A DNA stretch of 64,000 bases from Fibrobacter sp. Lineage in GTDB: Bacteria > Fibrobacterota > Fibrobacteria > Fibrobacterales > Fibrobacteraceae. The translations under genes and the position numbers were made by a program. Below, piece by piece: positions 1-23,268 of the stretch. The stretch covers positions 62,001 to 126,000 of the forward strand of contig JAKSIJ010000003.1 of NCBI GenBank assembly GCA_024398875.1, read 5' to 3'. Below the pieces are notes generated by a model, which had not been told where the DNA came from, did not search any database, and worked only from the letters and a program-made list of their open reading frames with translations. How positions within the stretch are numbered: the first letter of the stretch is position 1; each line of letters starts with the position of its first letter.

Positions 1-2724
1 GGGGAGAAGCTGCAAGTCAACTCCAGTTTTCACGTCTTCATCGTGAATGCTGATGGAACGTGCAAAGACTTTTGCTCCCGGCAACTCATTGAGGCTAAGG
101 CCCGGCATAACTGCCGCTGCATTCTGGTCCAAAACGGCTTGACCGCCGAAGACGGAAAGGAGCTTGGAATCCTTAGGCAGGTAGTGGAGAGACAGTCCGT
201 TTGCACCGGTAGTCCAGTGAGATTCAATTGCGCAATCAAACTGATGGCTCTGATTCAGGAAGTCAATGTCTTCTTGAGTCATGTCAGAAAGAAGCAGTGT
301 CTTTCCGCCATTCTTGGTCACATCCACAATCTTATTCAAGATTTCATCGGGCCAGGAACTGAGGTTTGCCGTAAAGATAATCTGCTCCGGTCCAGAAAGT
401 GCAGCCAAGGCATCGCTGGATTCTTCGCTATTATCTAGGAAACAGACCTTCTTGATGGAATCTTTCACATTGACAGATTCCAGCACAATCAGTTCTTCGA
501 AAGCGGAATGGATTTCCTTTCCATTGTTCTTCAAAGTTTGTTTGATTTGGAATTTTCCTGTGGTCTTGGGAGCAATTAAAGTACATACTCCAAGCTGAGT
601 CAAGCTTGTCTTACCTGCAGGTTCATTTGGAGTAAGATTCTTTGTGCTGAGGACCTTTCCGTTTCCATCCATCAATGCAATTTCCACAGAAATGTTTTCC
701 AGACGACTGTTGTTGAGGAGAGTCACCTGGAAAGAGACCTCGCTTTGAGGGGCGACCACATGTTCCAGTTCGCTAATGAGAACGCGACTAGGAGTGGTTA
801 TTTCTTTAGCAAATCCTTCAAAGCCCTTGCTCACGCGATTTTCATCACAGAATCCGCTAAAGTCTGTTCCAAAGTCAGCCCATTCCGAGAGGAAGAAGCC
901 TGAAACCTGAGGATTGCTCTGGAATGCGGTAATCTGATCCAACTTACTCTTTATGCCAATGCGGCTTGCATCTGCAATGAACGCATCTAAATTGTTCCAT
1001 ACCGACTCAGGAGAAGCAATAAACGTATCCATCGCCTTATAAACATTCTTGATGGACTTTTGAATCTTGGCACTACGCGGTCCCTTGATGGTGGTTGCCT
1101 TCTTGGGGAGAAGCGAGTGATTCTTTAGGGTGACGAGAAGTTTGTTTTCCACTCCGTCTGCCACATTTTCATCTTCATCCTGGAAGCGGCTATCGCCGAG
1201 GCCAGCGTCGGGCACGGTAAATTCTTCTTCGTCCTTGTCAAACAAGTGGGCGAGGAAGTGGCTATAGCTTGCATTGGGGCAAAGCCGCGGATTCACACGC
1301 AATGAGGAATAGGTGGAAATCCTATCAACGGTCACCGGAAGAAGCTTGCCCGTATCCTTATGGAAATTGCCTTCATTATCCAGATAGATACTATCAAGAT
1401 TGCTGATGACAGGGCGAGTCATATCCACGGGGCTGATGGTGTTCAGAAGTTTGTTTCCGTTTTGCAGCATGAAGGTGCCATTTTCGGAGCCAAGAACCCA
1501 AACGGCAATGCATGGATGATTGTGCTGTTCCTTGACGATATCGTTAATAAGCTTCTTTGCAATTTCCAAGCCCTGCGCAGTTGAACGCATGGTATGGATG
1601 GGGAATTCCTGAAATACCAGAAGACCAATTTCATCGCAAATATCAAGTGCTTCATTGCTCAAGGGAGCGCCGCAACTACGAATTGCGTTGAATCCTGCGG
1701 CTTTCACGGCTTGAAGGTCTTTCTTCAACTTCGGGTTATCCTGGGTCCAAAGTCCGCCTTCACTCCACTGCTGGTTGTAGCATACACCTTGAATTTTGAG
1801 AATAGCGTCATTCAGGTAGTAGTCGCCCTTGATACAGTCAAACTTCCGGAAGGAGAATGTCCGAACAACAGGAAAGGTGTACTCGGGAGCCTTGCCCTTG
1901 TTGCCCTTGATTTCAAGTTGGACTTCCACCGCGAACATATTGGGGCGGTCCAGGCTCCAAATGCACTTGTCGCGCTTCCAATCCTTAATGGAAAGAACGA
2001 TGCGTGGAGTCGCGTTTTCCTTATCCAGCTTAATGTCTTTATAGAATTCGTACACATCACCGGCAGAATTTCGCATCAGAATGCGGATGCGGGCCTGGAA
2101 ACCTCTGGGGTTATTGAGGGAAATGTCTAGAGCAACACGCTCCTGGTCCATATCGGGCTCAACATGCACGTCAGAAACGAAGGCCGTATTGCCCAAAATC
2201 AAATCTACATGCCCAAAAATACCGCCAAAGGGGTACTTCATCCAAGGAAGACCTACGGGAACCTCGCTGGGGTGAACAAAGCGGTCATCTGCGCCCTCTT
2301 CACTTTCACGGCCAAAGTCGATACGGCCATTTGCAGAGCCCATGTTGGCTACACGAACGCAAAGGACGTTTTCTTCGCCTAATTTAATGGCTTTTTGGGT
2401 TTCTACAATAAAGGGGGTATAGGCACCAAAATGGGTGGCCAAACGAATGCCATTGAGCCAAATGGTAGCATGGCTTGCTATGCGTTCAAAACGGAGGAAT
2501 ATGCGTTTTGCGACCTGTTTTTCATCCTCAATGGTGAAGCGTTTGAAATAGTAGGCGCAATCCTGGGACATGGTGACTTTTTCAAAAGAGCGTTCCCAAA
2601 CATGAGGAACAGTTACCTTCTCCGTATCTTCAGGGTAGGTGGCATACCAACGATTGGACATACCAGAATCTTCGGTATCCCATTTCATCTGCCATTCGCC
2701 GTCAAGATGCATAATTGTGTTCAT
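1..2724 (-). CDS. glycoside hydrolase family 2-like protein (C-terminus beyond window)
   Basis: The minus-strand frame is open from the ATG at 2724 to the window edge (908 codons), so the end of the protein is missing. AAAGGACC lies about 8 nt before the ATG. The N-terminus has the GH2 sugar-binding domain pattern (about residues 5-130), then an immunoglobulin-like domain and a TIM-barrel part (about 270-620) with HNHPCIAVW at 401-409. No signal peptide is seen, so the enzyme should be cytoplasmic and act on imported oligosaccharides. The acid/base glutamate usually follows Asn (GNE); here the site reads GSEN with Glu414 after Ser413. The nucleophile region around EEFTVPDAGLGD also lacks the usual Glu. 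Family membership is fairly sure; substrate and catalytic competence are not. Confidence 0.75.
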   Translation of the reverse strand, partial: MNTIMHLDGEWQMKWDTEDSGMSNRWYATYPEDTEKVTVPHVWERSFEKVTMSQDCAYYFKRFTIEDEKQVAKRIFLRFERIASHATIWLNGIRLATHFGAYTPFIVETQKAIKLGEENVLCVRVANMGSANGRIDFGRESEEGADDRFVHPSEVPVGLPWMKYPFGGIFGHVDLILGNTAFVSDVHVEPDMDQERVALDISLNNPRGFQARIRILMRNSAGDVYEFYKDIKLDKENATPRIVLSIKDWKRDKCIWSLDRPNMFAVEVQLEIKGNKGKAPEYTFPVVRTFSFRKFDCIKGDYYLNDAILKIQGVCYNQQWSEGGLWTQDNPKLKKDLQAVKAAGFNAIRSCGAPLSNEALDICDEIGLLVFQEFPIHTMRSTAQGLEIAKKLINDIVKEQHNHPCIAVWVLGSENGTFMLQNGNKLLNTISPVDMTRPVISNLDSIYLDNEGNFHKDTGKLLPVTVDRISTYSSLRVNPRLCPNASYSHFLAHLFDKDEEEFTVPDAGLGDSRFQDEDENVADGVENKLLVTLKNHSLLPKKATTIKGPRSAKIQKSIKNVYKAMDTFIASPESVWNNLDAFIADASRIGIKSKLDQITAFQSNPQVSGFFLSEWADFGTDFSGFCDENRVSKGFEGFAKEITTPSRVLISELEHVVAPQSEVSFQVTLLNNSRLENISVEIALMDGNGKVLSTKNLTPNEPAGKTSLTQLGVCTLIAPKTTGKFQIKQTLKNNGKEIHSAFEELIVLESVNVKDSIKKVCFLDNSEESSDALAALSGPEQIIFTANLSSWPDEILNKIVDVTKNGGKTLLLSDMTQEDIDFLNQSHQFDCAIESHWTTGANGLSLHYLPKDSKLLSVFGGQAVLDQNAAAVMPGLSLNELPGAKVFARSISIHDEDVKTGVDLQLLP

Positions 2725-2753
2725 GAATCAAGGTCCTTTATAAATTTTCATGG

Positions 2754-2761
2754 CAAAAATA
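2754..2761 (-). promoter_or_regulatory. TAnnTTTG-type -10 element of the GH2 gene
   Basis: On the minus strand TATTTTTG lies 29 nt before the GH2 start codon. It matches the Bacteroidetes-type -7 consensus TAnnTTTG that recurs upstream of other genes in this window. No clear -35 box is seen. Confidence 0.4.
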
Positions 2762-2782
2762 GCAATTTTTTGGCATAATCCC

Positions 2783-2813
2783 TTTACTTTTCTATAAATC
2801 CTTGCTAAATTTG
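2783..2813 (+). promoter_or_regulatory. rplU-rpmA promoter
   Basis: TTTACT (2783-2788), a 17-nt spacer, then TAAATTTG (2806-2813), 33 nt before the rplU ATG. The second box matches both a sigma-70 -10 hexamer (TAAATT) and the TAnnTTTG form. Confidence 0.5.
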
Positions 2814-2846
2814 GGTCTCCAATAGCAACCTAAAAAGGATTACAAA

Positions 2847-3332
2847 ATGTATTCTATTGTTGAAACAGGTGGTTTCCAGTATAAAGTCGAACTCGGCAAG
2901 ACCTACAAGGTTCCGACCATCGACGCAGCTGTTGGTTCCGAACTGGAGCTCAAGTCCGTTCTTCTTTTCGCAGGAAAAGAAGTGCAAATCGGCACCCCTG
3001 TCCTGAATGATGCTTCCGTCAAGGTTGAAGTTCTCGACCACGGCAAATACGATACCATTATCGTGTTCAAGAAGAAGCGTCGTACCCGTTACGAACGTCG
3101 TAACGGTCATCGTCAGGGCTATACCGAGGTGCTCGTAACGGAAATCCGCTCCGGCGCAGAATCCGCAACTGTTGAACCTCAAGTTATTACCCGCAACCGC
3201 GCTCGCGTGGCTGCCCTTGCTAAGCAGAAGGCTCAGAACAAGCCGCTCACTCGCAAGGAAAAGATCGCTCAGGGTATCGCTAAGCCTGCAAAGGTTAAGA
3301 AGAACTCTCTGCGTAAGGCTAAGGAGGCTTAA
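2847..3332 (+). CDS. rplU: 50S ribosomal protein L21 with long basic C-terminal extension
   Basis: Residues 1 to about 103 are a normal bacterial L21 (start MYSIVETGGFQYKV; middle FKKKRRTRYERRNGHRQGY), which binds 23S rRNA in the large subunit. The usual L21 is about 103 residues; this one has 161, with an extra tail of about 58 residues rich in Lys, Ala and Arg. AAAGG lies about 7 nt before the ATG. rpmA follows after 3 nt, the common rplU-rpmA pair. The tail is in frame and free of stops, so it is probably real. Confidence 0.96.
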   Translation: MYSIVETGGFQYKVELGKTYKVPTIDAAVGSELELKSVLLFAGKEVQIGTPVLNDASVKVEVLDHGKYDTIIVFKKKRRTRYERRNGHRQGYTEVLVTEIRSGAESATVEPQVITRNRARVAALAKQKAQNKPLTRKEKIAQGIAKPAKVKKNSLRKAKEA

Positions 3333-3335
3333 TCC

Positions 3336-3596
3336 ATGGCACATAAGAAAGGTCAAGGTTCCGTACGTAACGGCCGCGATAGTAACGCCAAATATCTTGG
3401 TGTGAAAAAGTATGCGGGCGAATCCGTCAAGGCTGGCAACATCATCGTTCGTCAGCGCGGCTCCCACTTCCACAATGGCACCAACGTTGGCATGGGCAGA
3501 GATTTCACTCTGTTCTCCCTGGTTGATGGCGTGGTGAAGTTCGAACGCCTCGATGCAAAGCGCCAGAAGGTCTCCGTTTATCCGGAAGAAGCCTAA
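3336..3596 (+). CDS. rpmA: 50S ribosomal protein L27
   Basis: The protein has 86 residues and starts [16 protein letters not shown], so it has no cleavable N-terminal extension of the Firmicute kind. L27 sits near the peptidyl-transferase centre, and its basic N-terminus reaches toward the tRNA acceptor ends. The [19 protein letters not shown] segment is diagnostic. It is co-transcribed with rplU and followed at once by a strong terminator. Confidence 0.97.
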
Positions 3597-3619
3597 TCCG
3601 CTTTATTCGAATTTGAAAG

Positions 3620-3649
3620 CCGGACGTGAAAACGTCCGGTTTTCTTTTT
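3620..3649 (+). terminator. rho-independent terminator of rplU-rpmA
   Basis: A perfect 8-bp stem CCGGACGT/ACGTCCGG with a GAAA tetraloop is followed by a T-rich run. Confidence 0.9.
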
Positions 3650-3665
3650 GTATATAAAACTCTTG

Positions 3666-3694
3666 TTGTGCCCTAGCAACGAATTTGCTAAATT
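3666..3694 (+). promoter_or_regulatory. promoter of the 3702 lipoprotein gene, leaderless geometry
   Basis: TTGTGC (3666-3671), a 17-nt spacer and TAAATT (3689-3694) are followed by only 7 nt before the ATG at 3702. Transcription would begin at the start codon. No Shine-Dalgarno sequence is present. Confidence 0.45.
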
Positions 3695-3701
3695 GTTTGC
3701 G

Positions 3702-6020
3702 ATGCGTAAATCTCTATACATGTTATTATCAATACTCATCTTGGCAGCCTTTTCTGCCTGCTCTGATGATGATGACGATGTTGAATACCTGTTTGATAGA
3801 GAATCTACGGAATTGAAAGTCCTTCGCAGTTGTGCTGACGCAAAAGATACTTCTTCCTGCTATAGGCTCCAATACCATTATCCCATCCAAACAGAAGATC
3901 TTGCCTACATCCACATGTGGTTAGATACAACAGTTGTGGACGATACTTCCAAATCAGTTTCTTCTAAACAAATTGAGAATGCAACAAAATCCTACAAATA
4001 CCCACAGGGAACTTCTGCCTTATATGATACCATTGATTTAACAGAAATGGTTGCCCCCTATTTGAAAACATACGATAGCCTGCAAGTTGCATTATTCTGC
4101 GAATATACAGATGACGATGATGAAGGGTCAGTACAACGTGTCTATCTGCATTTTGGAGATGATATTCCTCCAGCACGTGTTTCCATCTACGATTCCGTTT
4201 GGACCACAGGCGTGATGTTGGAATGGTTCCGGCCTACGGATCAGACGGATTTTTACTCGCCTTCAGAACTTTCTGGTCCCATCGTCGGATACAATTTGGA
4301 ACTGTATTCGCCCAACAAGAATGAGGACTTGCGTAATGTCAAATTAATGCTAACAACTCCTGATGGTCTGGATTACGAAGGAAATGTATACTATAAACGT
4401 CATGCACGTATCTATTCCAATAATGATTCCATTTGGGTGGGTGAAGTGGCTCATGCCGACAATGCAAAGAACTACCTCCGTATCGCCGTTATAGATGGAA
4501 AGGGCTTCAATTTTGATGCAGATTCCATGAACCGTTACCGCATGGTGATAGAGGGCTTAAAGCCTGAATCGCAATACACGATTGGTATTTCTGCATGGGA
4601 TTCCAGTGGAAATTCTTCTGGAACGGAGGGCACATCAACTGCAGAGAATAATCAACTCTTCATTACAACAGATTCCATTGCTCCTTTGATGCCCACAAAA
4701 ATCTGGACATTGGCCGACACGCTATTCCCAGGTTACGCTAGACTAGATAGCAACAATCGTTTGCGTATTTTTTGGAGTCAAAGTGTAGATCCCAAATATT
4801 CAAACCATCCTATTACGGTGGATAGTGTGCTACATGTTCCAGATACCTGCTGGATAAAGGAATGCTACGATACAGTGGCAAGTTACATTGTGGAATGGTA
4901 CAATTCCTTTGAAAAGAAGTGGGAAAAATATTCCTATGCCGGTGGGGAAGGGCGTTATTCAAAAATGTATGCCTTAAGTGGAGATACAATGAAAGTGTCC
5001 ACTAAAGGGACTTTTGTGACAGATACCATTCGCTGGGTTTCTCCGGGAGATACCATTATCTTGCGTATTCGCTCCATTGATAAATCAGGTTTTTATTCAG
5101 TGGCTTTAATTGATACCATTGCTGTATCACCCGGAAAATACGCAAAAGATTTGGAATGTCCCGAAGGCTTTGCTGCTGTTTCCACAGGAGATACATCTTT
5201 CTTCTGTATGGAAAAATTAGAACATCAAGTAGACAGCCTCTTTGCAAACAATGTTCTTCATTCCGAAGCAAAGGCTGCCTGTGAGGCCATTTCTGCCAGC
5301 GGTTTCAGTGTATCGTTGTGTAAGGAGCGCGACTGGGAACTGGTTTGCCTTTCTGGAGGAACGCTCGCCTATGGCGTTATTGAAGAAGAGAATGTTGACG
5401 CAACGGAATATTTGTTTAGTTACTGCAATGTCGCAACAAATGATTCATTATCGGCGAAAAACATTTCCAAACGCGATAAGCGTTGTGTAAACCCCATGGG
5501 GATTCGTGATTTGCCGGGCCAATACCAAGAGTGGGTTCTGGGTCGTTCCGAAGACACCATTGCTGTCGTAAAGGGCTCGAGTTATAAAGTATTCAATGGG
5601 CTGGACCGAGAATCCATTGCTCTTTGCACAAACCATTCTACGCCTTATTATACCCGTTTGGAGTGGACCACGGACTCTGTCTATCTCTATCGTGAAGGCT
5701 CAAAGGTAGATACGGTTTTTGTTGCAGATACTTCAAGAACCTTATACAAGATTCTCACAAAAAAAGATTTCAAGGATTCTCTCCAATTCTTTACGGTAAA
5801 GGATTCTTCGGGTAATGTCATTGGTACAGACTACGCTCCTTATGCAGAATACAAGAAGGGCGGAGACGCATGGCTGAAAAAGCTGGCCAATGGATTGATA
5901 TACGAACCCAGCAGTATTAAAGTTGTGTTCCTTACGGGTGAAAAAGTGCAGTATCGCGAGGCCGCAGCCTTCTATAAATCACCGACCATAGGGTTCCGCT
6001 GTTGCGCCTATCCAGAGTAG
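3702..6020 (+). CDS. lipoprotein with fibronectin-like and sulfatase-modifying-factor-like domains
   Basis: The start chosen gives a lipoprotein signal (MRKSLYMLLSILILAAFSAC, lipobox Cys at 20) followed by an Asp-rich linker, so the product should be anchored on the cell surface or outer membrane. The middle (about 150-490) looks like fibronectin type III repeats. The C-terminal 280 residues resemble the FGE-sulfatase/C-type-lectin fold, with EWV near the middle and IGFRCC at the end, interrupted by an insert of about 90 residues. Length is 772 residues. It is probably a surface-exposed binding protein; no enzymatic residues were identified. Confidence 0.7.
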   Translation: MRKSLYMLLSILILAAFSACSDDDDDVEYLFDRESTELKVLRSCADAKDTSSCYRLQYHYPIQTEDLAYIHMWLDTTVVDDTSKSVSSKQIENATKSYKYPQGTSALYDTIDLTEMVAPYLKTYDSLQVALFCEYTDDDDEGSVQRVYLHFGDDIPPARVSIYDSVWTTGVMLEWFRPTDQTDFYSPSELSGPIVGYNLELYSPNKNEDLRNVKLMLTTPDGLDYEGNVYYKRHARIYSNNDSIWVGEVAHADNAKNYLRIAVIDGKGFNFDADSMNRYRMVIEGLKPESQYTIGISAWDSSGNSSGTEGTSTAENNQLFITTDSIAPLMPTKIWTLADTLFPGYARLDSNNRLRIFWSQSVDPKYSNHPITVDSVLHVPDTCWIKECYDTVASYIVEWYNSFEKKWEKYSYAGGEGRYSKMYALSGDTMKVSTKGTFVTDTIRWVSPGDTIILRIRSIDKSGFYSVALIDTIAVSPGKYAKDLECPEGFAAVSTGDTSFFCMEKLEHQVDSLFANNVLHSEAKAACEAISASGFSVSLCKERDWELVCLSGGTLAYGVIEEENVDATEYLFSYCNVATNDSLSAKNISKRDKRCVNPMGIRDLPGQYQEWVLGRSEDTIAVVKGSSYKVFNGLDRESIALCTNHSTPYYTRLEWTTDSVYLYREGSKVDTVFVADTSRTLYKILTKKDFKDSLQFFTVKDSSGNVIGTDYAPYAEYKKGGDAWLKKLANGLIYEPSSIKVVFLTGEKVQYREAAAFYKSPTIGFRCCAYPE

Positions 6021-6026
6021 TTTCTT

Positions 6027-6290
6027 ATGCAGGCACACTGTTCAAAATGCGGTAGAGAATTCGTTGAACGGGTTGGCATGGGCCCTCTTGAAAGCGTTAT
6101 GGCTATCAAGTTACGGAATGCTTTGGGAAATTTCTGTCCAGAATGTCAAGCGGAACTCCGCACAACAAAAAAGGGCCGCTGGACCCTTAGATTTTTGACT
6201 TTAAAAGTTGTTCTAATTAGCGCCGGAATATTGCTGGTAATTTTTGCAATCTTTGCCGCACTAATTCTAGCATTAACTTTCGCTTTGTAA
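6027..6290 (+). CDS. small zinc-ribbon membrane protein
   Basis: The 87-residue protein has an N-terminal zinc ribbon (CSKCGRE and CPEC pairs, residues 5-40) and one C-terminal transmembrane segment of about 25 hydrophobic residues. It starts 6 nt after the lipoprotein stop without a clear ribosome binding site, so translation may be coupled. Function is unknown. Its stop codon lies in the loop of a hairpin shared with the convergent gene. Confidence 0.65.
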   Translation: MQAHCSKCGREFVERVGMGPLESVMAIKLRNALGNFCPECQAELRTTKKGRWTLRFLTLKVVLISAGILLVIFAIFAALILALTFAL

Positions 6291-6301
6291 TCTGCGAAAG
6301 T
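6276..6301. terminator. hairpin between convergent genes
   Basis: A perfect 8-bp stem ACTTTCGC/GCGAAAGT with a 10-nt loop lies between the two convergent stop codons and overlaps both gene ends. It has no long T-run on either side, so it may act as a weak bidirectional terminator or 3'-end stabiliser. Confidence 0.4.
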
Positions 6302-6756
6302 CAATTCACCACAATCTTCTTGTAGTTTTTAGCATTTCCAATCCAAAGCTTTACCAGCAACTCTTCAAGAGATGCGGTAGAAACATTCTCTGGATCTGCA
6401 TCCTGAATCTCATCCGAAATCAGATTTGCCTGAGTCAGGTTCAGCATCCCGTAATACATGGCTTCCATAAGCTGCGACGCAAACTTTGGCGACACATTGG
6501 CTACCGTATCCATATCATTCAATGGAGGAAGCATATTGTTGTCGGGGCTGAACTGGTCCAGGTTATCCATAGTCCACATGTCGGCGGCTTTAGACATATC
6601 AGGGGAAGGAGCAACCTTCTTTAAAAGTTCCTGATACTCCTTCCATTCCTTGTCCGTAGTCTTACCTGCACGGCGAACATTGCGCAAGAAGGAGAGGACC
6701 GCATAGTAGAGGTCCTTTTCCTTTTGGTTCTGTTCCTTTGTGGTAATCTGAATCAT
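6301..6756 (-). CDS. hypothetical protein, last gene of the purH group
   Basis: The 151-residue soluble protein has no recognised family. It has a helical, charged N-terminus (EKDLYYAVLSFLRNVRRAG) and a C-terminal helical part. It begins 10 nt after the AICAR transformylase gene on the same strand, so it is almost certainly co-transcribed with it. No signal peptide or membrane segment is seen. Confidence 0.6.
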   Translation of the reverse strand: MIQITTKEQNQKEKDLYYAVLSFLRNVRRAGKTTDKEWKEYQELLKKVAPSPDMSKAADMWTMDNLDQFSPDNNMLPPLNDMDTVANVSPKFASQLMEAMYYGMLNLTQANLISDEIQDADPENVSTASLEELLVKLWIGNAKNYKKIVVN

Positions 6757-6766
6757 TTATACCAAA

Positions 6767-7819
6767 TTAATGACGGAAATGACGCATTCCAGTGAAGACC
6801 ATTGCCACACCGAGCTTGTCGCATGCTTCAATGGACAGATTGTCCTTTTTGGAACCACCCGGTTGCACAATATACTGGACACCAGCGGCGGCGGCGGCTT
6901 CGACGTTATCTGGGAACGGGAAGAATGCATCGGAGCCCATCACAACTTCGCTGAAAATTTTCTTTTCCAGTGCCTTGAGGCCAGCCTTGTCGATGCACTT
7001 GCCCTTTTCGTTGAAGAACTTCTGGGCGGCCTTCATGCGAGCAACGTTGTCGCGAACGCGGGGCTGGCAGAGGCGGAGATTACTATCAATGCGGTTGGGC
7101 TGACCGGGGCCAAGACCTATAACCTGGAAGTATCCACGAGCGTATTCATAACCCATGACGATTGCGTTGCTCTTGGTGTGTTTAGTGACGATCCAGGTGA
7201 AGCGGGCGAGGGCTTCCTTGTTCTTTGCAAACTTCTTCTTGGTAACGCATTCAAACTTTTCGTAAACATCAACGTCACGGTCCTGAACCAGCATGCCGCC
7301 AATCACGTGTTTGTAAACCTTGCACTTTGTAGCCTTCTTGATTTCGCCAACTTCCAGAAGACGAATGTCCTTGGACTTGTTCTTGAGGAATTCAAGGGCG
7401 TCGGCGTCGAATGCAGGGGCAAGGAGGATTTCAACGAAACGACCTTTAAGGAGCAACGCTGTCTTCAGGTCCACCTTCTTGGTGACGGCAATAACGGAAC
7501 CGAATGCGGACACCGGGTCACCTTCCCATGCGGCTTCAAAAGCCTTATCGAGAGTTTTGCCCGTAGCAAGGCCACATGGGTTCATGTGCTTCACGATGAC
7601 AACAGCATTTTCGCCTGCGAATTCACGAGCCATTTCGAGGGCGGCATCGGCATCAACAATGTTGTTGTAGGAAAGTTCCTTACCATGGAGTTGCTTTGCC
7701 GTGGCGAGACTTGCTTCCGTGCAAGTGGGGTCACGGTAGAAAACAGCGGACTGATGAGAGTTTTCACCATAGCGCATAGATACGGGGTCAACAAACTTCA
7801 ACTTCAAATCTTTAGACAT
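6767..7819 (-). CDS. purH: AICAR formyltransferase (stand-alone PurH transformylase domain)
   Basis: The enzyme transfers a formyl group from 10-formyl-tetrahydrofolate to AICAR, the penultimate step of IMP synthesis. The 350 residues match only the C-terminal transformylase half of bifunctional PurH (usually about 520 residues). The sequence starts where that domain starts (RYGENSHQSAVFY) and keeps the catalytic KHMNPCG motif. The N-terminal IMP cyclohydrolase (MGS-like) domain is missing, and no frame for it lies upstream. AAAGGA precedes the ATG. The cyclohydrolase must be encoded elsewhere or replaced. Confidence 0.88.
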   Translation of the reverse strand: MSKDLKLKFVDPVSMRYGENSHQSAVFYRDPTCTEASLATAKQLHGKELSYNNIVDADAALEMAREFAGENAVVIVKHMNPCGLATGKTLDKAFEAAWEGDPVSAFGSVIAVTKKVDLKTALLLKGRFVEILLAPAFDADALEFLKNKSKDIRLLEVGEIKKATKCKVYKHVIGGMLVQDRDVDVYEKFECVTKKKFAKNKEALARFTWIVTKHTKSNAIVMGYEYARGYFQVIGLGPGQPNRIDSNLRLCQPRVRDNVARMKAAQKFFNEKGKCIDKAGLKALEKKIFSEVVMGSDAFFPFPDNVEAAAAAGVQYIVQPGGSKKDNLSIEACDKLGVAMVFTGMRHFRH

Positions 7820-7869
7820 ATTTTTCCTTTGGTTGTTTTAACAATTTAATAATTCTTTTTGTTCCTGTT

Positions 7870-8694
7870 TTAGAAGAGGCTGGCTGGAGGATTGTTATCG
7901 TCCATACCAGGAAGATCTGGATTTGGAGGAAGGTTATCTAGAGGATCTTCAGGTTCCACCGTCAAGTTATAGTAGACGTTATTCTTCAGTTCATCTTCAA
8001 TATAGAAGAGGGTTCCACCCATAGCACTTCCGCATCCGGCGCAGGCACCCTGATAGCGGATTTTTAGATGGTCATCGTCTGTCAACTCCAAAATTTCCAG
8101 GTCGCCGCCATCCCCCTGGAGTGTTCCGCGAACTGTCTGACGAAGCCACTCCTCAATTTTTTCGATTCTTTGAATCTTCGTCAATGCTCTCCATTCAGCA
8201 TCGGCTTCTGCACGGCCTTCAGCGCTCTGGGTGCGATACTTGATGCGTTCCATCTTCTCGCGAACGAGAATCGCAGTTCCTTTCTTCTCGGGATAGACTT
8301 CCTTGATTTTTTTAATAAGGGTCTGAAGTTGCCCGATTTCTGCGGCATTTTCAGGAATTGCCCGCACATCGGCCGTATCACGAAGAGATTCCTCAATGCT
8401 TGTAGCAGTAATAGCGCAGGCTTCATCAATAGTCTTCTGCTGAATCATTTTGCAGAAAGTGTCTGCCAAAGCCGTAAATATGGGGCCGCCATAAGTAAAG
8501 AAACGAGTCTCCAGAATCTTGTCGCAGTCCGGGTCAATCATCAAATAAACTTTAAGGCTGGCTTCTTTTACATCAACGAGAGCAAGTCCTTTCTCATCAG
8601 CTTCAATCTGGAAGATAGCACCCCGATACTTCGGAGCTTTAGCCACTTCCTGCGCCTTTTGAGAGAGTTGCGTAATAATGTTTTCTTCTGACAT
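7870..8694 (-). CDS. NifU-like protein with degenerate IscU domain
   Basis: The C-terminal domain (about 170-250) is a NifU/Nfu domain with GDGGDLEILEL and the cluster-binding pair CAGC in GACAGCGSAMGG, so it should carry or transfer a 4Fe-4S cluster. The N-terminal part (about 20-130) aligns with the IscU scaffold (RFFTYGG..., IDEACAIT), but the three scaffold cysteines are absent: the YGCGS position reads YGGPI. The tail is rich in Pro, Asn and Asp. The gene lies 50 nt before purH in the same direction and 27 nt after an AsmA-like gene. A carrier role without de novo assembly is inferred. Confidence 0.75.
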   Translation of the reverse strand: MSEENIITQLSQKAQEVAKAPKYRGAIFQIEADEKGLALVDVKEASLKVYLMIDPDCDKILETRFFTYGGPIFTALADTFCKMIQQKTIDEACAITATSIEESLRDTADVRAIPENAAEIGQLQTLIKKIKEVYPEKKGTAILVREKMERIKYRTQSAEGRAEADAEWRALTKIQRIEKIEEWLRQTVRGTLQGDGGDLEILELTDDDHLKIRYQGACAGCGSAMGGTLFYIEDELKNNVYYNLTVEPEDPLDNLPPNPDLPGMDDNNPPASLF

Positions 8695-8721
8695 ATTTCT
8701 TAATTCTGCATTCCTAATTCA

Positions 8722-10554
8722 TCATTCGGCTTTATCTTTGCTTTCTTCAGCTTGATTTGCTGCGGATTCATCAGAACCGGCTACGCTTTCAACCAGTTTC
8801 ACAGGAGTAAAGGCCACTTTCACAATGAGGTTCATCACCGTTTTCCAAATGATTTTGCCGATGGAAAATTGAGGATCTTTCATGTTGCCTTTCACAGGCA
8901 CATCGAAACGAATGTTGTCATCTTTATCCTTCAAAAGGTAGAGTCCTACTTTCATGGGCACAGAGTATTCCGGCTTGGAGTTAGGATCCTTGTCTGCCAC
9001 ATCGAGTTTTTGAATGTCGATAGTGTTTTTGCTGTCCAAATTAAAGTTGCGGATTTTGTTTTCGCTAATGAACGACATGGTTCCCGCACTTAAAGGATAC
9101 CCTGTGTAATGATGGCTGTAATTGCTGAAATGCTTTAAAGCAAGATTCTTAATGTTGATATAGGCATCCATTGTCCCCAAATCACTGATAGCGCCATTAA
9201 ACTTTACCGCAAGAGTCCCTCCACCAGGGAAGGCCGCAGAGACGCTCACTGCACAAGGGAAGTCAAAATTGATATTGCTGCCATTGACCGAAATACCACT
9301 GACGGTATAATGAAATGGGTTGGTAATGGTGTTATCATTGGCGGAAACCGTTGTGTTGTGAACAAGCAACTTATCAACGACAGCCTTAAGTTTTTTAGCA
9401 GGAGCAGGGGAGGTTTCCGTGCTATCTGTTTTTTCCTCATTCGCTGTAGCTATAGGCTCAGATGCATTAACTGCGGAGGAATCGGTTTCTGGAGCATCGT
9501 TTTTCTTGTTCATGGGAGCCAGAAGAACATCGATGTTTGTCTTTCCGCCCTTGTACAAGTCTAGATGTGCAAAAGCTCCATCTACAATGACAGAATCAAT
9601 GTGGAAATCGTTTTCATTCAAGTTTGCCCGAGCGATTCCTACGCCCACGTGATTGACTCCGATGGTCTGTCCGCTAGTTTCTGTCAAAACGATGCTGTCA
9701 AGAGCTACAAGCCCTTTCACATCACTAGCCATCACATCATTTAGATTCCCGTTAACTTGGATGTGTGTATTCAAGAGACCAGAGAAATCACTAAAATCAA
9801 TGAAATCCTTCATATAAGGCTTTCCGCAGGCGAGGGAAAACTGTTCCAAATCTACATGCACGTTGAAATCATTGGTGGCCATATTAGCGTTTACCTTGAC
9901 TGCCAGGTTGCCGCCATCAGCAAACTTGAAGCTGACTCCCACATCTGTACTTTTATTGCTGAGATAAACTGCCGGAATGTTGAGGGAGAAATCCTCAAGA
10001 TGGAACTTGGAACCGACCTTTTCATCCTCATAGATGATATTTCCGTTTTCGAAGACGATGTTTGAGACTGATATGGCAACAGGGAGTGTGTTGGCGATTT
10101 CAGTAGCGTTGATAACTGCTGCTGAATCGGTGGAGGCGGTATCTACAGCAACAGTATCTGCCGTGGAATTGGCGGCGAAATGTTCCAAGATATCTGTAAA
10201 ATTGAATTGGTCTCCGTTCTGGACGGCACGGACATACAGGCCTTTCAAATAGATTTCACTAACGGCGGCAGTTCTCGTGACAATCTTTAGAGGGTCGATA
10301 TTAATTCTGAATTTTTCAAAAGCCACAAAAGGAGTCTTTCCGTCCTTCTCATACAAAGCGAACTTATCCACATTTGCCACGAAGCTTAGGGGATTGAAAG
10401 AGATGCTTTCTATGGAGAGTTGTCGCCCGACTAGTTCTTCGGAATGGCTGACGATGTAATTCTTCGCGATGGAGGGACCAATTTTCAGCGCCACAAATAC
10501 AAGAAGAATAAGGGCAGCCAAAACAATGAGAATAACTTTCAAAGCCTTTTTCAT
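8722..10554 (-). CDS. AsmA/DUF748-like envelope protein
   Basis: The 610-residue protein has one N-terminal transmembrane segment (KALKVILIVLAALILLVFVAL) followed by a long beta-rich periplasmic part typical of AsmA/DUF748 proteins. Family members bridge or act at the outer membrane and affect lipid transport or assembly. An Ala/Thr/Ser/Glu-rich linker lies near residues 330-370. The ATG at 10554 was chosen; a TTG three codons upstream is also possible. TATTTT ends 9 nt before the ATG, suggesting a leaderless message. Confidence 0.7.
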   Translation of the reverse strand: MKKALKVILIVLAALILLVFVALKIGPSIAKNYIVSHSEELVGRQLSIESISFNPLSFVANVDKFALYEKDGKTPFVAFEKFRINIDPLKIVTRTAAVSEIYLKGLYVRAVQNGDQFNFTDILEHFAANSTADTVAVDTASTDSAAVINATEIANTLPVAISVSNIVFENGNIIYEDEKVGSKFHLEDFSLNIPAVYLSNKSTDVGVSFKFADGGNLAVKVNANMATNDFNVHVDLEQFSLACGKPYMKDFIDFSDFSGLLNTHIQVNGNLNDVMASDVKGLVALDSIVLTETSGQTIGVNHVGVGIARANLNENDFHIDSVIVDGAFAHLDLYKGGKTNIDVLLAPMNKKNDAPETDSSAVNASEPIATANEEKTDSTETSPAPAKKLKAVVDKLLVHNTTVSANDNTITNPFHYTVSGISVNGSNINFDFPCAVSVSAAFPGGGTLAVKFNGAISDLGTMDAYINIKNLALKHFSNYSHHYTGYPLSAGTMSFISENKIRNFNLDSKNTIDIQKLDVADKDPNSKPEYSVPMKVGLYLLKDKDDNIRFDVPVKGNMKDPQFSIGKIIWKTVMNLIVKVAFTPVKLVESVAGSDESAANQAEESKDKAE

Positions 10555-10608
10555 AATACTCAAAAAATAGAAAAGCCCTACAAAAGTGGCACACCTAAAG
10601 ATGACATT

Positions 10609-11373
10609 CTAGGCGTTATAGTTTACATCATTCCGATGCTTTAGCACGCGATTTAGAGGAACATAGATAAAGGTGAACAAAATGTAGCCACACAGGAGGA
10701 CTATCCAGTGGTTCAGCCCTAAAATGGTTTCCAGATAACGCATTTCGATGAACATGAAGGGGCCGGCAATGAGGAAAAGGGGGAGTTGGCGGCATTGGTC
10801 ATCTAGAGAGAAACGGCTTTCATAGCTTACAATAGAATTCATCATGGGGAAACTGGTGCAAAAGCCTCCCATGAGCCGCTTGATGAACATAAGGCCCGTT
10901 ACAACGCCAGCAATCGCCGGAGCTTTGATGTAGATGGGCAGGGGAGTCTTGTAGCGCACTCCGGAGCGGTATTTTTGCTTTTGAAAAAGGATGAGACCTA
11001 CGGTAAAATCAAAGGCGCAGGCCCCGAGGAAAAAGGCTTCGCCATCGGGGACACGTGGCATGAGGAAGGTTCCCGTAACCACGAAGAAAACGAGTCCGAG
11101 GATGATGGAGGGAACAATTGGAATTTTTACTTTGTAATGAAGCAACCGGACGATGTTGGCAAACAGCATGCACATGAATCCAGAAATGGCGTTTGCCGCT
11201 CCAATGGGTAGACCGACGGCGATATAGGCAAATCCATAGGGGATGGGGATAGTGGCTGTGACTGCCTTCAATTGCGGGTCTTTCAGGTAAGCGCTGAGAG
11301 TGCCTAGGGCTGTTACCATGAAGACTAGCAGCCAATCATAAAAAGAGAAGTTGAAATTCAACGCCTCGACCAT
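10609..11373 (-). CDS. polytopic membrane protein of unknown function
   Basis: The 254-residue protein has about seven hydrophobic segments and Pro/Gly-rich loops. No transporter family was recognised. TATTTTTG ends 8 nt before the ATG, the -10 arrangement that suggests a leaderless transcript. It is divergent from rpsO and separated by 217 bp. Confidence 0.55.
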   Translation of the reverse strand: MVEALNFNFSFYDWLLVFMVTALGTLSAYLKDPQLKAVTATIPIPYGFAYIAVGLPIGAANAISGFMCMLFANIVRLLHYKVKIPIVPSIILGLVFFVVTGTFLMPRVPDGEAFFLGACAFDFTVGLILFQKQKYRSGVRYKTPLPIYIKAPAIAGVVTGLMFIKRLMGGFCTSFPMMNSIVSYESRFSLDDQCRQLPLFLIAGPFMFIEMRYLETILGLNHWIVLLCGYILFTFIYVPLNRVLKHRNDVNYNA

Positions 11374-21152: not shown

Positions 21153-21827
21153 TCATTTCCCAGAGGAAACAATCACTTTTGCAGTTTTAAGAATCTTGTT
21201 TTTGAGTTTATAGCCCTTCTGGAACACCGTCACAACATGACCTTCAGGGACTGTTTCCGAGGGTTGTTGCATCAAAGCTTCATGACAGTTCGGGTCAAAT
21301 TCAGCGCCTGTGGGGTCAATCTGCTCAAGGCCAGCATCGGTCAAGACCTTCACAAACTGTGTCTGAATCATCTGCATGCCTTTTTCGAAGGAGGGGAGGT
21401 CGCCTTTGTTTTCAGCAGCAAAAGCGCGGTCAAAATTCTCCCAAACATCAGCAAACTTTTCGAGAAGTTTTCCGTTGGCAACTTCAATAAGATCAAGTTG
21501 CTCTTTGGCGCTACGGCGGCGGAAATTGTCGAATTCAGCCATCAAACGCATATAACGGTCGTTCGCAGCAGCGAGTTCGGCCTTTAAAACATTTTCAGCA
21601 GATTCAGTGGGCTGTTCAGTAGCCTGGTCTGCTTTGGAATCCTCTGTGGCATTCTCAGAGGACTTCGCTGCATCATCGACAGGCTTTTCTTCTGTAGAGG
21701 CAGCTTGGTCGCCATCTTTAGCATTAGCATCAGCAGAGGCTTCTTTTTCCATCTTCATGGCAGCCTCTGCAGCTTTTAAAACATCTTCTTCAAACTTAGC
21801 ACGTTCTGGATCCAATTCTTCGGCCAT
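21153..21827 (-). CDS. grpE: nucleotide exchange factor GrpE
   Basis: GrpE releases ADP from DnaK. The 224 residues comprise an acidic, Ala/Glu-rich disordered N-terminus (about 1-75), the long coiled-coil helix (AANDRYMRLMAEFDNFRRR, about 90-130) and the C-terminal beta domain with NCHEAL and GHVVTVFQKGY. AAAAAGGA precedes the ATG. It is followed by dnaK after 117 nt. Confidence 0.95.
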   Translation of the reverse strand: MAEELDPERAKFEEDVLKAAEAAMKMEKEASADANAKDGDQAASTEEKPVDDAAKSSENATEDSKADQATEQPTESAENVLKAELAAANDRYMRLMAEFDNFRRRSAKEQLDLIEVANGKLLEKFADVWENFDRAFAAENKGDLPSFEKGMQMIQTQFVKVLTDAGLEQIDPTGAEFDPNCHEALMQQPSETVPEGHVVTVFQKGYKLKNKILKTAKVIVSSGK

Positions 21828-21914: not shown

Positions 21915-21989
21915 TTAGGCATTGCTCAGGGTTCCAAGCACAAGGGCAATGACCAAGGCAAACATAATCATGGTTTCTGTGTTATGCAT
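21915..21989 (-). CDS. 24-residue membrane peptide upstream of grpE
   Basis: A short minus-strand frame encodes a peptide starting MHNTETMIM and continuing with about 15 hydrophobic residues to the end (...LGTLSNA), a single transmembrane segment. AAAGGAG lies 7 nt before the ATG, one of the best ribosome binding sites in the window. It ends 88 nt before the grpE start and directly abuts the palindrome. It may be a small stress-related membrane protein or a leader peptide. Proof of expression is lacking. Confidence 0.5.
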   Translation of the reverse strand: MHNTETMIMFALVIALVLGTLSNA

Positions 21990-22039: not shown

Positions 22040-22430
22040 GGGTTAAATGCTTTTACTTGAGGAACTCAGTTTCCAACGCTGTTGCAAACCCGTTTTCCAC
22101 GAAATTTGGCAAAAAAAGCCGAATATTAAACAAATGGTGGCCAACAAGCGTTTAAAACGTCCGTTGCCAACACTGTGTCAAAATCAAGCGTTTAAAACCA
22201 GGTTGAAAACCGTTGCTTCATTTTGCCACATCGATGGCCAACCAGTTGTTCACACAGTTGCAAATTGCCGATTCTGTGCAAAAAACGGTAAACCACCTCG
22301 GTTGGGCAACCTTGGTGTGCAACGTCCCGAAGGGTTTGCAAATCTTGTTTGACTACTCGGTGGGAAACCAGATGGTTGGAAAATCGTTTCACACGGGGTG
22401 GAAAACGAAGTTTCAAACGGGTTAAATGCT
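22040..22430. repeat. array of GTT-N3/4-AAC dyads flanked by a 12-bp direct repeat
   Basis: GGGTTAAATGCT occurs at 22040-22051 and again at 22419-22430. Between the copies are about a dozen short dyads at irregular spacing: GTTTCCAAC (22069), GTTGCAAAC (22081), GTTTAAAAC (22150 and 22190), GTTGCCAAC (22163), GGTTGAAAACC (22201), GGTTGGGCAACC (22300), GGTGGGAAACC (22359) and GTTTCAAAC (22410), plus looser ones. CAAGCGTTTAAAAC is repeated exactly at 22145 and 22185. No frame here resembles a known protein. It is probably a protein-binding or structural DNA region. Confidence 0.55.
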
Positions 22431-22549
22431 GGCAGGAAACACTCTTTTATTCCACGTTTTAGTTTACATAACCCGCATTATCGGCAATAAAAAAAGACGA
22501 GGTAATAATATGGTCGGTTTACTCTATTTTTCGCTAAATTCACTTAAAA

Positions 22550-22581
22550 TTGGCATCTTTGTCACCGCTTTTATATATTTG
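22550..22581 (+). promoter_or_regulatory. promoter of the 22588 lipoprotein gene, leaderless geometry
   Basis: TTGGCA (22550-22555), an 18-nt spacer and TATATTTG (22574-22581) are followed by only 6 nt before the ATG. No Shine-Dalgarno sequence is present. From the array end at 22430 to here nothing else is seen. Confidence 0.5.
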
Positions 22582-22587
22582 ACTTGT

Positions 22588-23268
22588 ATGAAGTTTACAT
22601 CATCCCGTTTAAAGATTCTGGTACTTTTATTATCCGTTTTGTTCATCATATCCGTCTTTTCTGGATGTGCTGCCACGCGAAAACTGGATGCAGCCAGCAT
22701 TCTTTCGAAAACGCACTTGGAATTTAATTCCATGACACTGGATTCCGTTTCTATAAATCCAGATTTGTTCGATAAACTGGCCTCTGTGAAGACCAGTCTT
22801 TTGCCAAACCCTCAGGTCGTCACAATTGTACAAAATCTTGCCCGTGGAATTATAGAATCAGAACTTGGTAAAGCCTATTTAAGCGCAGATTTGAACGCCA
22901 TCAGCCAAAGCGAAGATTCATTGTGGGTCCGCTCCCTGAACGCCACCCTAGTTTTGGATTCTGTGATGGATTTGCCCCTTAATCTAAAAGATTCCGTAAT
23001 TCTTGTGACCGGAACCAACAAAATCACAGTAACAACCTCATTCCCGGTTGACAAAAGGATTTTTAAGCTCGAAAGTATAAGGAAGATTACTGTAAAGGGC
23101 GTTCTGGAAGTTGCATTGGATGCAGAAGGGCCTTCTGTTCCATTGGATTTTGAAGTGGGAAAAGTGGTTACTCCAGAAGAGATTACCGCTTTGGAAGACA
23201 ATGCACGCCAAACTCTTTTAAATGGACTAATAAATGATTGGGTCGGAGCCATTTTGCCGAAGGATTGA
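22588..23268 (+). CDS. lipoprotein of unknown function
   Basis: The 226-residue protein starts with a basic n-region and a long hydrophobic stretch ending ISVFSGC (lipobox), so it should be lipid-anchored in the envelope. The rest is soluble and beta-rich, with no known domain recognised. An earlier in-frame ATG exists at 22426, but it would place the signal sequence internally. The stop is 3 nt before the M3 peptidase start, so the two are co-transcribed. Confidence 0.65.
   Translation: MKFTSSRLKILVLLLSVLFIISVFSGCAATRKLDAASILSKTHLEFNSMTLDSVSINPDLFDKLASVKTSLLPNPQVVTIVQNLARGIIESELGKAYLSADLNAISQSEDSLWVRSLNATLVLDSVMDLPLNLKDSVILVTGTNKITVTTSFPVDKRIFKLESIRKITVKGVLEVALDAEGPSVPLDFEVGKVVTPEEITALEDNARQTLLNGLINDWVGAILPKD

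Follow-up and report, generated by a model that had tools for sequence, protein, structure and literature searches.

In the 64,000-nucleotide stretch of Fibrobacter sp. DNA analysed here (hereafter the window), a region of about 390 bp between grpE and a rightward gene run is filled with short GTT-N3/4-AAC dyads. What is such an array, and why does it stand at this position? An initial annotation, made from the window alone, had offered either a multi-site binding region (centromere-, origin- or nucleoid-protein-like) or a degenerate mobile cassette. On the basis of sequence comparison with relatives, we consider that the array probably (at about 0.85) represents the terminal repeat of a Tn7-like element that homes on the chromosomal dif site, in a copy that carries no genes.

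The dyad array and its boundaries

The array is real and lies far above chance expectation. It contains seven exact GTT-N3-AAC dyads (at 22069, 22081, 22150, 22163, 22190, 22202 and 22410), against a mean of 0.47 and a maximum of 4 in dinucleotide shuffles. A single GTT-N4-AAC dyad at 22301 brings the total of exact dyads to eight (shuffled mean 0.95, maximum 6; 2000 dinucleotide shuffles); the density described earlier is therefore upheld, whereas the count of at least nine clear dyads is not. No other 390-bp stretch of the window is as dense in GTT-N3/4-AAC dyads. The repeating unit is GTTKNMAAC, with site-to-site steps mostly of 11-13 bp, and 16 sites match it with at most one mismatch (shuffled mean 2.6), a number reached in none of 1000 shuffles. 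The 14-bp repeat CAAGCGTTTAAAAC is present, as reported, in two exact copies 40 bp apart that hold two of the dyads. The dyads are short, imperfect and irregular, in agreement with the earlier statement that this is not a CRISPR array. The features of the region are as follows.

21153..21827, minus strand: grpE, the left neighbour
22040..22051, plus strand: 12-bp repeat GGGTTAAATGCT, left copy (exact match), which contains the target-site duplication and whose GGGTTA equals the right terminus of the element
22046..22050, no strand: target-site duplication AATGC, left copy, flanking the element
22051..22424, plus strand: putative gene-less Tn7-like element (solo terminal repeat or mini-transposon), 374 bp, 5'-TTTTACTTG...GGGTTA-3', from the target-site duplication, homologous boundaries in G090 and G100, and site enrichment
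22069..22077, no strand: exact dyad GTTTCCAAC
22081..22089, no strand: exact dyad GTTGCAAAC
22104..22124, no strand: short inverted repeat ATTTGGC-AAAAAAA-GCCGAAT, from alignment
22150..22158 and 22190..22198, no strand: exact dyad GTTTAAAAC, within the 14-bp repeat
22163..22171, no strand: exact dyad GTTGCCAAC
22202..22210, no strand: exact dyad GTTGAAAAC
22410..22418, no strand: exact dyad GTTTCAAAC
22419..22430, plus strand: 12-bp repeat GGGTTAAATGCT, right copy (exact match), consisting of the terminus GGGTTA, the duplication AATGC and T
22425..22429, no strand: target-site duplication AATGC, right copy, flanking the element
22463..22486, plus strand: chromosomal dif core TTTACATAA-CCCGCA-TTATCGGCA, 38 bp from the element
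22510..23268, plus strand: right neighbour, a conserved gene without a Pfam match

The reading frame of the right neighbour is listed from 22426, but a start at 22510 is more likely because dif lies upstream of that position. Between grpE and the element, a 24-aa ORF on the minus strand (21915-21989, MHNTETMIMFALVIALVLGTLSNA), preceded by an RBS-like GGAG, is a possible small membrane protein.

The 12-bp direct repeat is exact, as the initial annotation had it, but it is not the boundary of the array, which is instead the 5-bp duplication AATGC inside it. The repeat is made up of this duplication, one matching base that follows it, and a 6-bp match between left flank and terminus; the latter may be due to chance or may be what is left of a previous tandem insertion, tandem copies being seen in one relative (G033). 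The stretch is gene-less as described, in that its ORFs have no Pfam match and are not conserved in homologs. It has no second copy in its own genome, no Rfam match overlaps it, and its predicted RNA folds no better than shuffled sequence (z = -0.9 and -1.4). The inverted repeat at 22104..22124, which has AAAATTGGC-GAAAAAA-GCCAATTTT at the equivalent place in the alignment with G071 and G090, may be a terminator or a candidate resolution core.

The dif site and the insertions beside it

The decisive feature of the locus, which the initial annotation had missed, is dif, the site at which bacteria separate sister chromosomes. When 871 bp of flanking sequence were searched in relatives, positions 22458-22492 were the sole broadly conserved piece, usually found once per genome. 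The core has a XerD-type arm on the left and a XerC-type arm on the right; we take the reverse complement of the conserved piece, TTGCCGATAAT-GCGGGT-TATGTAAAC, to show the XerC/XerD two-arm layout of dif. Of 80 genomes of the genus, 71 have the 22-bp dif pattern, mostly as one exact copy, as do 39 of 40 high-quality genomes; its arms are conserved and its centre is variable. Whereas an IMEX would lie between two dif-like sites, the genome of the window has a single dif, 38 bp from one end of the element. In several relatives grpE is 145-240 bp from dif, with no array-like sequence between them.

Homologs of the array were found in only three of the 80 genomes searched (G071, G090 and G100), all beside dif on its XerD side. 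Their boundaries, TCTAG...CTTCTTA in the alignment, correspond to positions 22051 and 22424 of the window. All four insertions end 37-38 bp from the dif core, those of G071 and G090 being solo arrays; the 5-bp duplication is exact in three (AATGC in the window, CATCG in G090, GCGGG in G100) and inexact in G071. Solo repeats of the G030 type occur in G033 (in tandem), G068 and G090, on the XerC side of dif, at 36-39 bp from the core and with exact duplications (ATTAG, AGGCC and GGAGC, respectively). With both sides and the complete element of G030 (TTGTA) included, there are eight insertions beside dif, all ending at 36-39 bp from its core and seven with exact 5-bp duplications. A solo of the G087 type is found at guaA in G083 (duplication TTGGT), and another of this type, in G001, has no exact duplication. 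A search for TnsB in the window's genome, G071, G090, G033, G068 and G083 found it in none of them. Shorter matches to the array in many other genomes were set aside as an unrelated motif, found within other genes or in front of a type II topoisomerase/gyrase-like gene.

Other sequences were also observed at dif. In other species, unrelated palindrome arrays of three types lie on its XerD side: GGCATATAA..TTATATGCC (loci L055, L058 and L030), TTACATAC..GTATGTAA (L038, L079, L105 and L086) and TTTTGCAAACA..TGTTGNCAAAA (L064, L071 and L050). Two insertions of about 8.2-8.3 kb between dif and a second dif-like site, one with a Zot-like gene (L053, G007:C22:18000-32000, ~2855-11080) and one with a rolling-circle replication initiator (L052, G022:C15, ~2090-10450), are filamentous-phage-like and apparently represent Xer-integrated phages. 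A CRISPR array with 47-48-bp repeats (L104, G027:C11, ~2412) has a spacer, CATGATTGGTTTACATAATCCGCATTATCT, that contains the dif core with foreign flank, an apparent case of immunity against a dif-integrating element.

Complete elements and the origin of solo arrays

TnsB homologs occur in only six of the 80 genomes (G100, G021, G087, G091, G030 and G018), that of G018 lying at a contig end and being left unplaced. In G100 the array forms the ends of a Tn7-like transposon of about 25 kb beside dif, which encodes a weak TnsA, Mu-transpos_C/TnsB, TniB/TnsC, TniQ and a tyrosine recombinase, with a type I restriction system and ArdC (by Pfam) as cargo. This element is split over two contigs, between the dif-proximal copy and a left copy of only 99 bp, which we read as truncated. 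The elements of G021, G087 and G091 lie at the 3' end of guaA and that of G030 on the XerC side of dif; each of the four has its own array at both ends, in direct orientation.

We found that the repeats of one element are alike, whereas those of different elements differ by 7-30%. In the four fully comparable pairs the two copies are identical (303 bp in G021, 316 bp in G087, 344 bp in G030, and two 316-bp copies with no differences in a split element of G027), although part of this identity could be assembly collapse in draft genomes; those of G091 are 97% identical, with an assembly gap of Ns. The outer flanks carry 5-bp duplications (AGCCG in G087, GCGGA in G021, AAACC in G091, TTGTA in G030, GCTCC in G027), and the inner flanks the pair CTCTA / TAGAG, conserved but for slight changes. 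As inverted termini of the TGT...ACA type bound most individual repeats (among them those of G087, G030 and G033; TCT...TTA in G071, G090 and G100), each looks like a complete mini-transposon with the tns genes outside it. The GTTKNMAAC array, largely in 11-13-bp steps, is also seen in the repeats of G087 and G021. It is absent from those of G030, which carry another motif, as might be expected for a TnsB of 50% identity.

The tyrosine recombinase of the elements has an invariant catalytic set (R, H..R, H, Y); G030 has a serine resolvase in its place, and also a P4-type primase domain. TniQ is 310 and 272 aa long in the dif-homing elements and 442 aa in the guaA-homing ones. ArdC-like reading frames are also present in the elements of G021, G091 and G030. 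Beyond the genus, all TnsB matches listed from plasmids were below 31% identity, the search of viral contigs found none, and relatives in Lachnospiraceae (50% identity), on short contigs, have no visible terminal repeats; no free circle of the elements was found. The terminal repeats of guaA-homing elements (L144 at ~11170-11210, L143 and L145) also contain a strong hairpin that has a run of T on one strand and might act as a guaA terminator in place of the original one, or else as a resolution site.

The reading of the array as a solo terminal repeat draws on a unit of 374 bp that is flanked by a 5-bp duplication and lies 38 bp from dif, on homologs that are the ends of a tnsABC-tniQ element in G100, on direct terminal repeats in complete relatives, and on tns-less solos at the same targets (dif and guaA). 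It gives a place to both suggestions of the initial annotation, whose interpretation as a whole is partly supported: the array has the character of protein-binding sites at a transposon end, and the cassette is gene-less between target duplications. Against it stand the 99-bp left repeat of G100, the inexact duplication of G071, the absence of GTTKNMAAC from G030 and the TTT...TTA termini of the window unit. As these are not TGT...ACA, we file the unit as a diverged terminal unit and not as a canonical Tn7-like transposon.

As to mechanism, TnsB is predicted to bind the dyads, and the short TniQ, with TnsC, would direct insertion to XerCD-bound dif. What transposes would be the repeat of about 300 bp itself, its source being a donor circle on which the tns genes lie outside the repeat. 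Copying from this circle would yield a cointegrate in which each junction holds one repeat; the tyrosine or serine recombinase of the element, or host recombination, could resolve it to leave a solo array as in the window. Identity within and divergence between elements, direct orientation, duplications around whole units and the two types of recombinase fit a cointegrate, and the P4-type primase domain of G030 and the ArdC-like genes of several elements fit a plasmid-like donor. The difference in TniQ length suggests that dif may be read through another protein, most simply XerCD. The tyrosine recombinase is more likely a resolvase than a target selector, because it is intact, occurs also in guaA-homing elements and is absent from the dif-homing element of G030; for the latter two reasons a TnsF-like role in selecting dif was not our first choice. 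However, a TnsA-like protein is present, and in Tn7 TnsA favours cut-and-paste, which would speak against a cointegrate if the protein is active here.

This protein is also the first point in favour of the strongest alternative, a MITE-like, non-autonomous mini-Tn7 moved in trans by cut-and-paste, complete elements being composites of two such copies formed with no cointegrate. The inverted termini of the 300-bp unit and solos with their own duplications would suit it as well, but a composite does not predict repeats that agree within elements and diverge between them, and recombinase genes of two families accompany the elements; we regard it as unlikely. More doubtful still is that the array is an attachment site, into which a circle with one copy recombines in Campbell fashion through the tyrosine recombinase or RecA. 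The flanking direct repeats and the intact catalytic set accord with this, but the first copy must still arrive with a 5-bp duplication, as by DDE transposition, and G030 has a serine resolvase instead; this route might also run in parallel with the main mechanism. A host array at dif with a role in regulation or segregation (centromere-like, bound by a nucleoid protein, or an accessory sequence for XerCD) would explain dense phased sites there, with the palindrome arrays of other species as parallels. It is very improbable given the flanking duplications, the absence of the array from most relatives and the identity of its homologs as transposon ends, which also tell against the centromere-, origin- and nucleoid-protein-like ideas put forward earlier. 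Decayed coding sequence, suggested by a 101-aa ORF that crosses the array, can be dismissed, as in the homologs stop codons interrupt each of the three forward frames and gaps shift the frame, and no Pfam match was found.

Returning to the solo-repeat reading, we tentatively propose, at a little under even odds, a class of elements, integrative and plasmid-like, whose TnsABC-TniQ would act on a mini-transposon of about 300 bp that excludes their own genes. Insertion at XerCD-dif or guaA would always give a cointegrate, resolution would return the circle and leave a reusable solo landing site, and TniQ would read Xer-bound dif. If so, full TnsABC-TniQ systems would count the chromosome-dimer-resolution site among their targets, their TniQ being a candidate reader of Xer, and a Tn7-like life cycle may include LTR-like direct repeats and solo footprints. 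The locus would bring to light a whole family of dif-homing elements, with footprints of this kind left behind, and solo arrays near dif would be a countable record of past integrations. Surveys that seek inverted left and right ends around tnsB could miss such elements.

Comparison with known systems

A literature search, with subscription journals largely outside its scope, found no TnsABC-TniQ element homing on dif and no Tn7-like elements with long direct terminal repeats. Tn7-like elements, for which four Fibrobacteres host species are listed, have arrays of TnsB sites at their ends and fixed target distances (Benler 2021, PMC8649781). The elements described here share with them tnsB, tnsC and tniQ, a weak TnsA, subterminal site arrays, TGT...ACA ends in most cases, 5-bp duplications, a fixed target distance and defence cargo; unlike them, they end in long direct repeats that each carry both termini, their tns genes lie between two complete mini-transposons, and their target is dif-proximal. 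The window unit has the site array at its end, the 5-bp duplication and the fixed distance from its target, but is gene-less, without the tnsB, tnsC and tniQ found in the homologous G100 element.

Insertion sequences of the IS1202 family that hunt dif sites, such as ISAjo2, always insert 5 bp from the XerC site (PMC10132070). They likewise have a TnsB-like transposase, a 5-bp duplication and a fixed distance from dif, but have one gene, whereas the TnsABC-TniQ elements here insert 36-39 bp away, on either the XerD or the XerC side; the window unit itself has no gene and lies 38 bp away on the XerD side. Resolvases and a predicted cointegrate pathway have been described for Tn7-like elements (PMC8649781, PMC11406308). 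Tn5053, which targets res sites, and Tn402 share TniQ-type targeting of recombinase sites and a cointegrate pathway with resolvase (PMC11406308); here, by contrast, the target is a chromosomal XerCD site and not a plasmid or transposon res, and a TnsA-like protein and direct terminal repeats are present. Tn6022 also combines a Tn7-like element with a protein of the tyrosine recombinase family (TnsF, Tsy). Its TnsF, which targets comM, is catalytically inactive and has zinc fingers (PMC10293859), unlike the intact recombinase described above with its occurrence at guaA and its absence from G030. By analogy only, the solo arrays resemble the solo LTRs of retroelements, in that a full element with direct repeats may once have occupied their position; unlike LTRs, they belong to a DDE transposon, with no reverse transcription.
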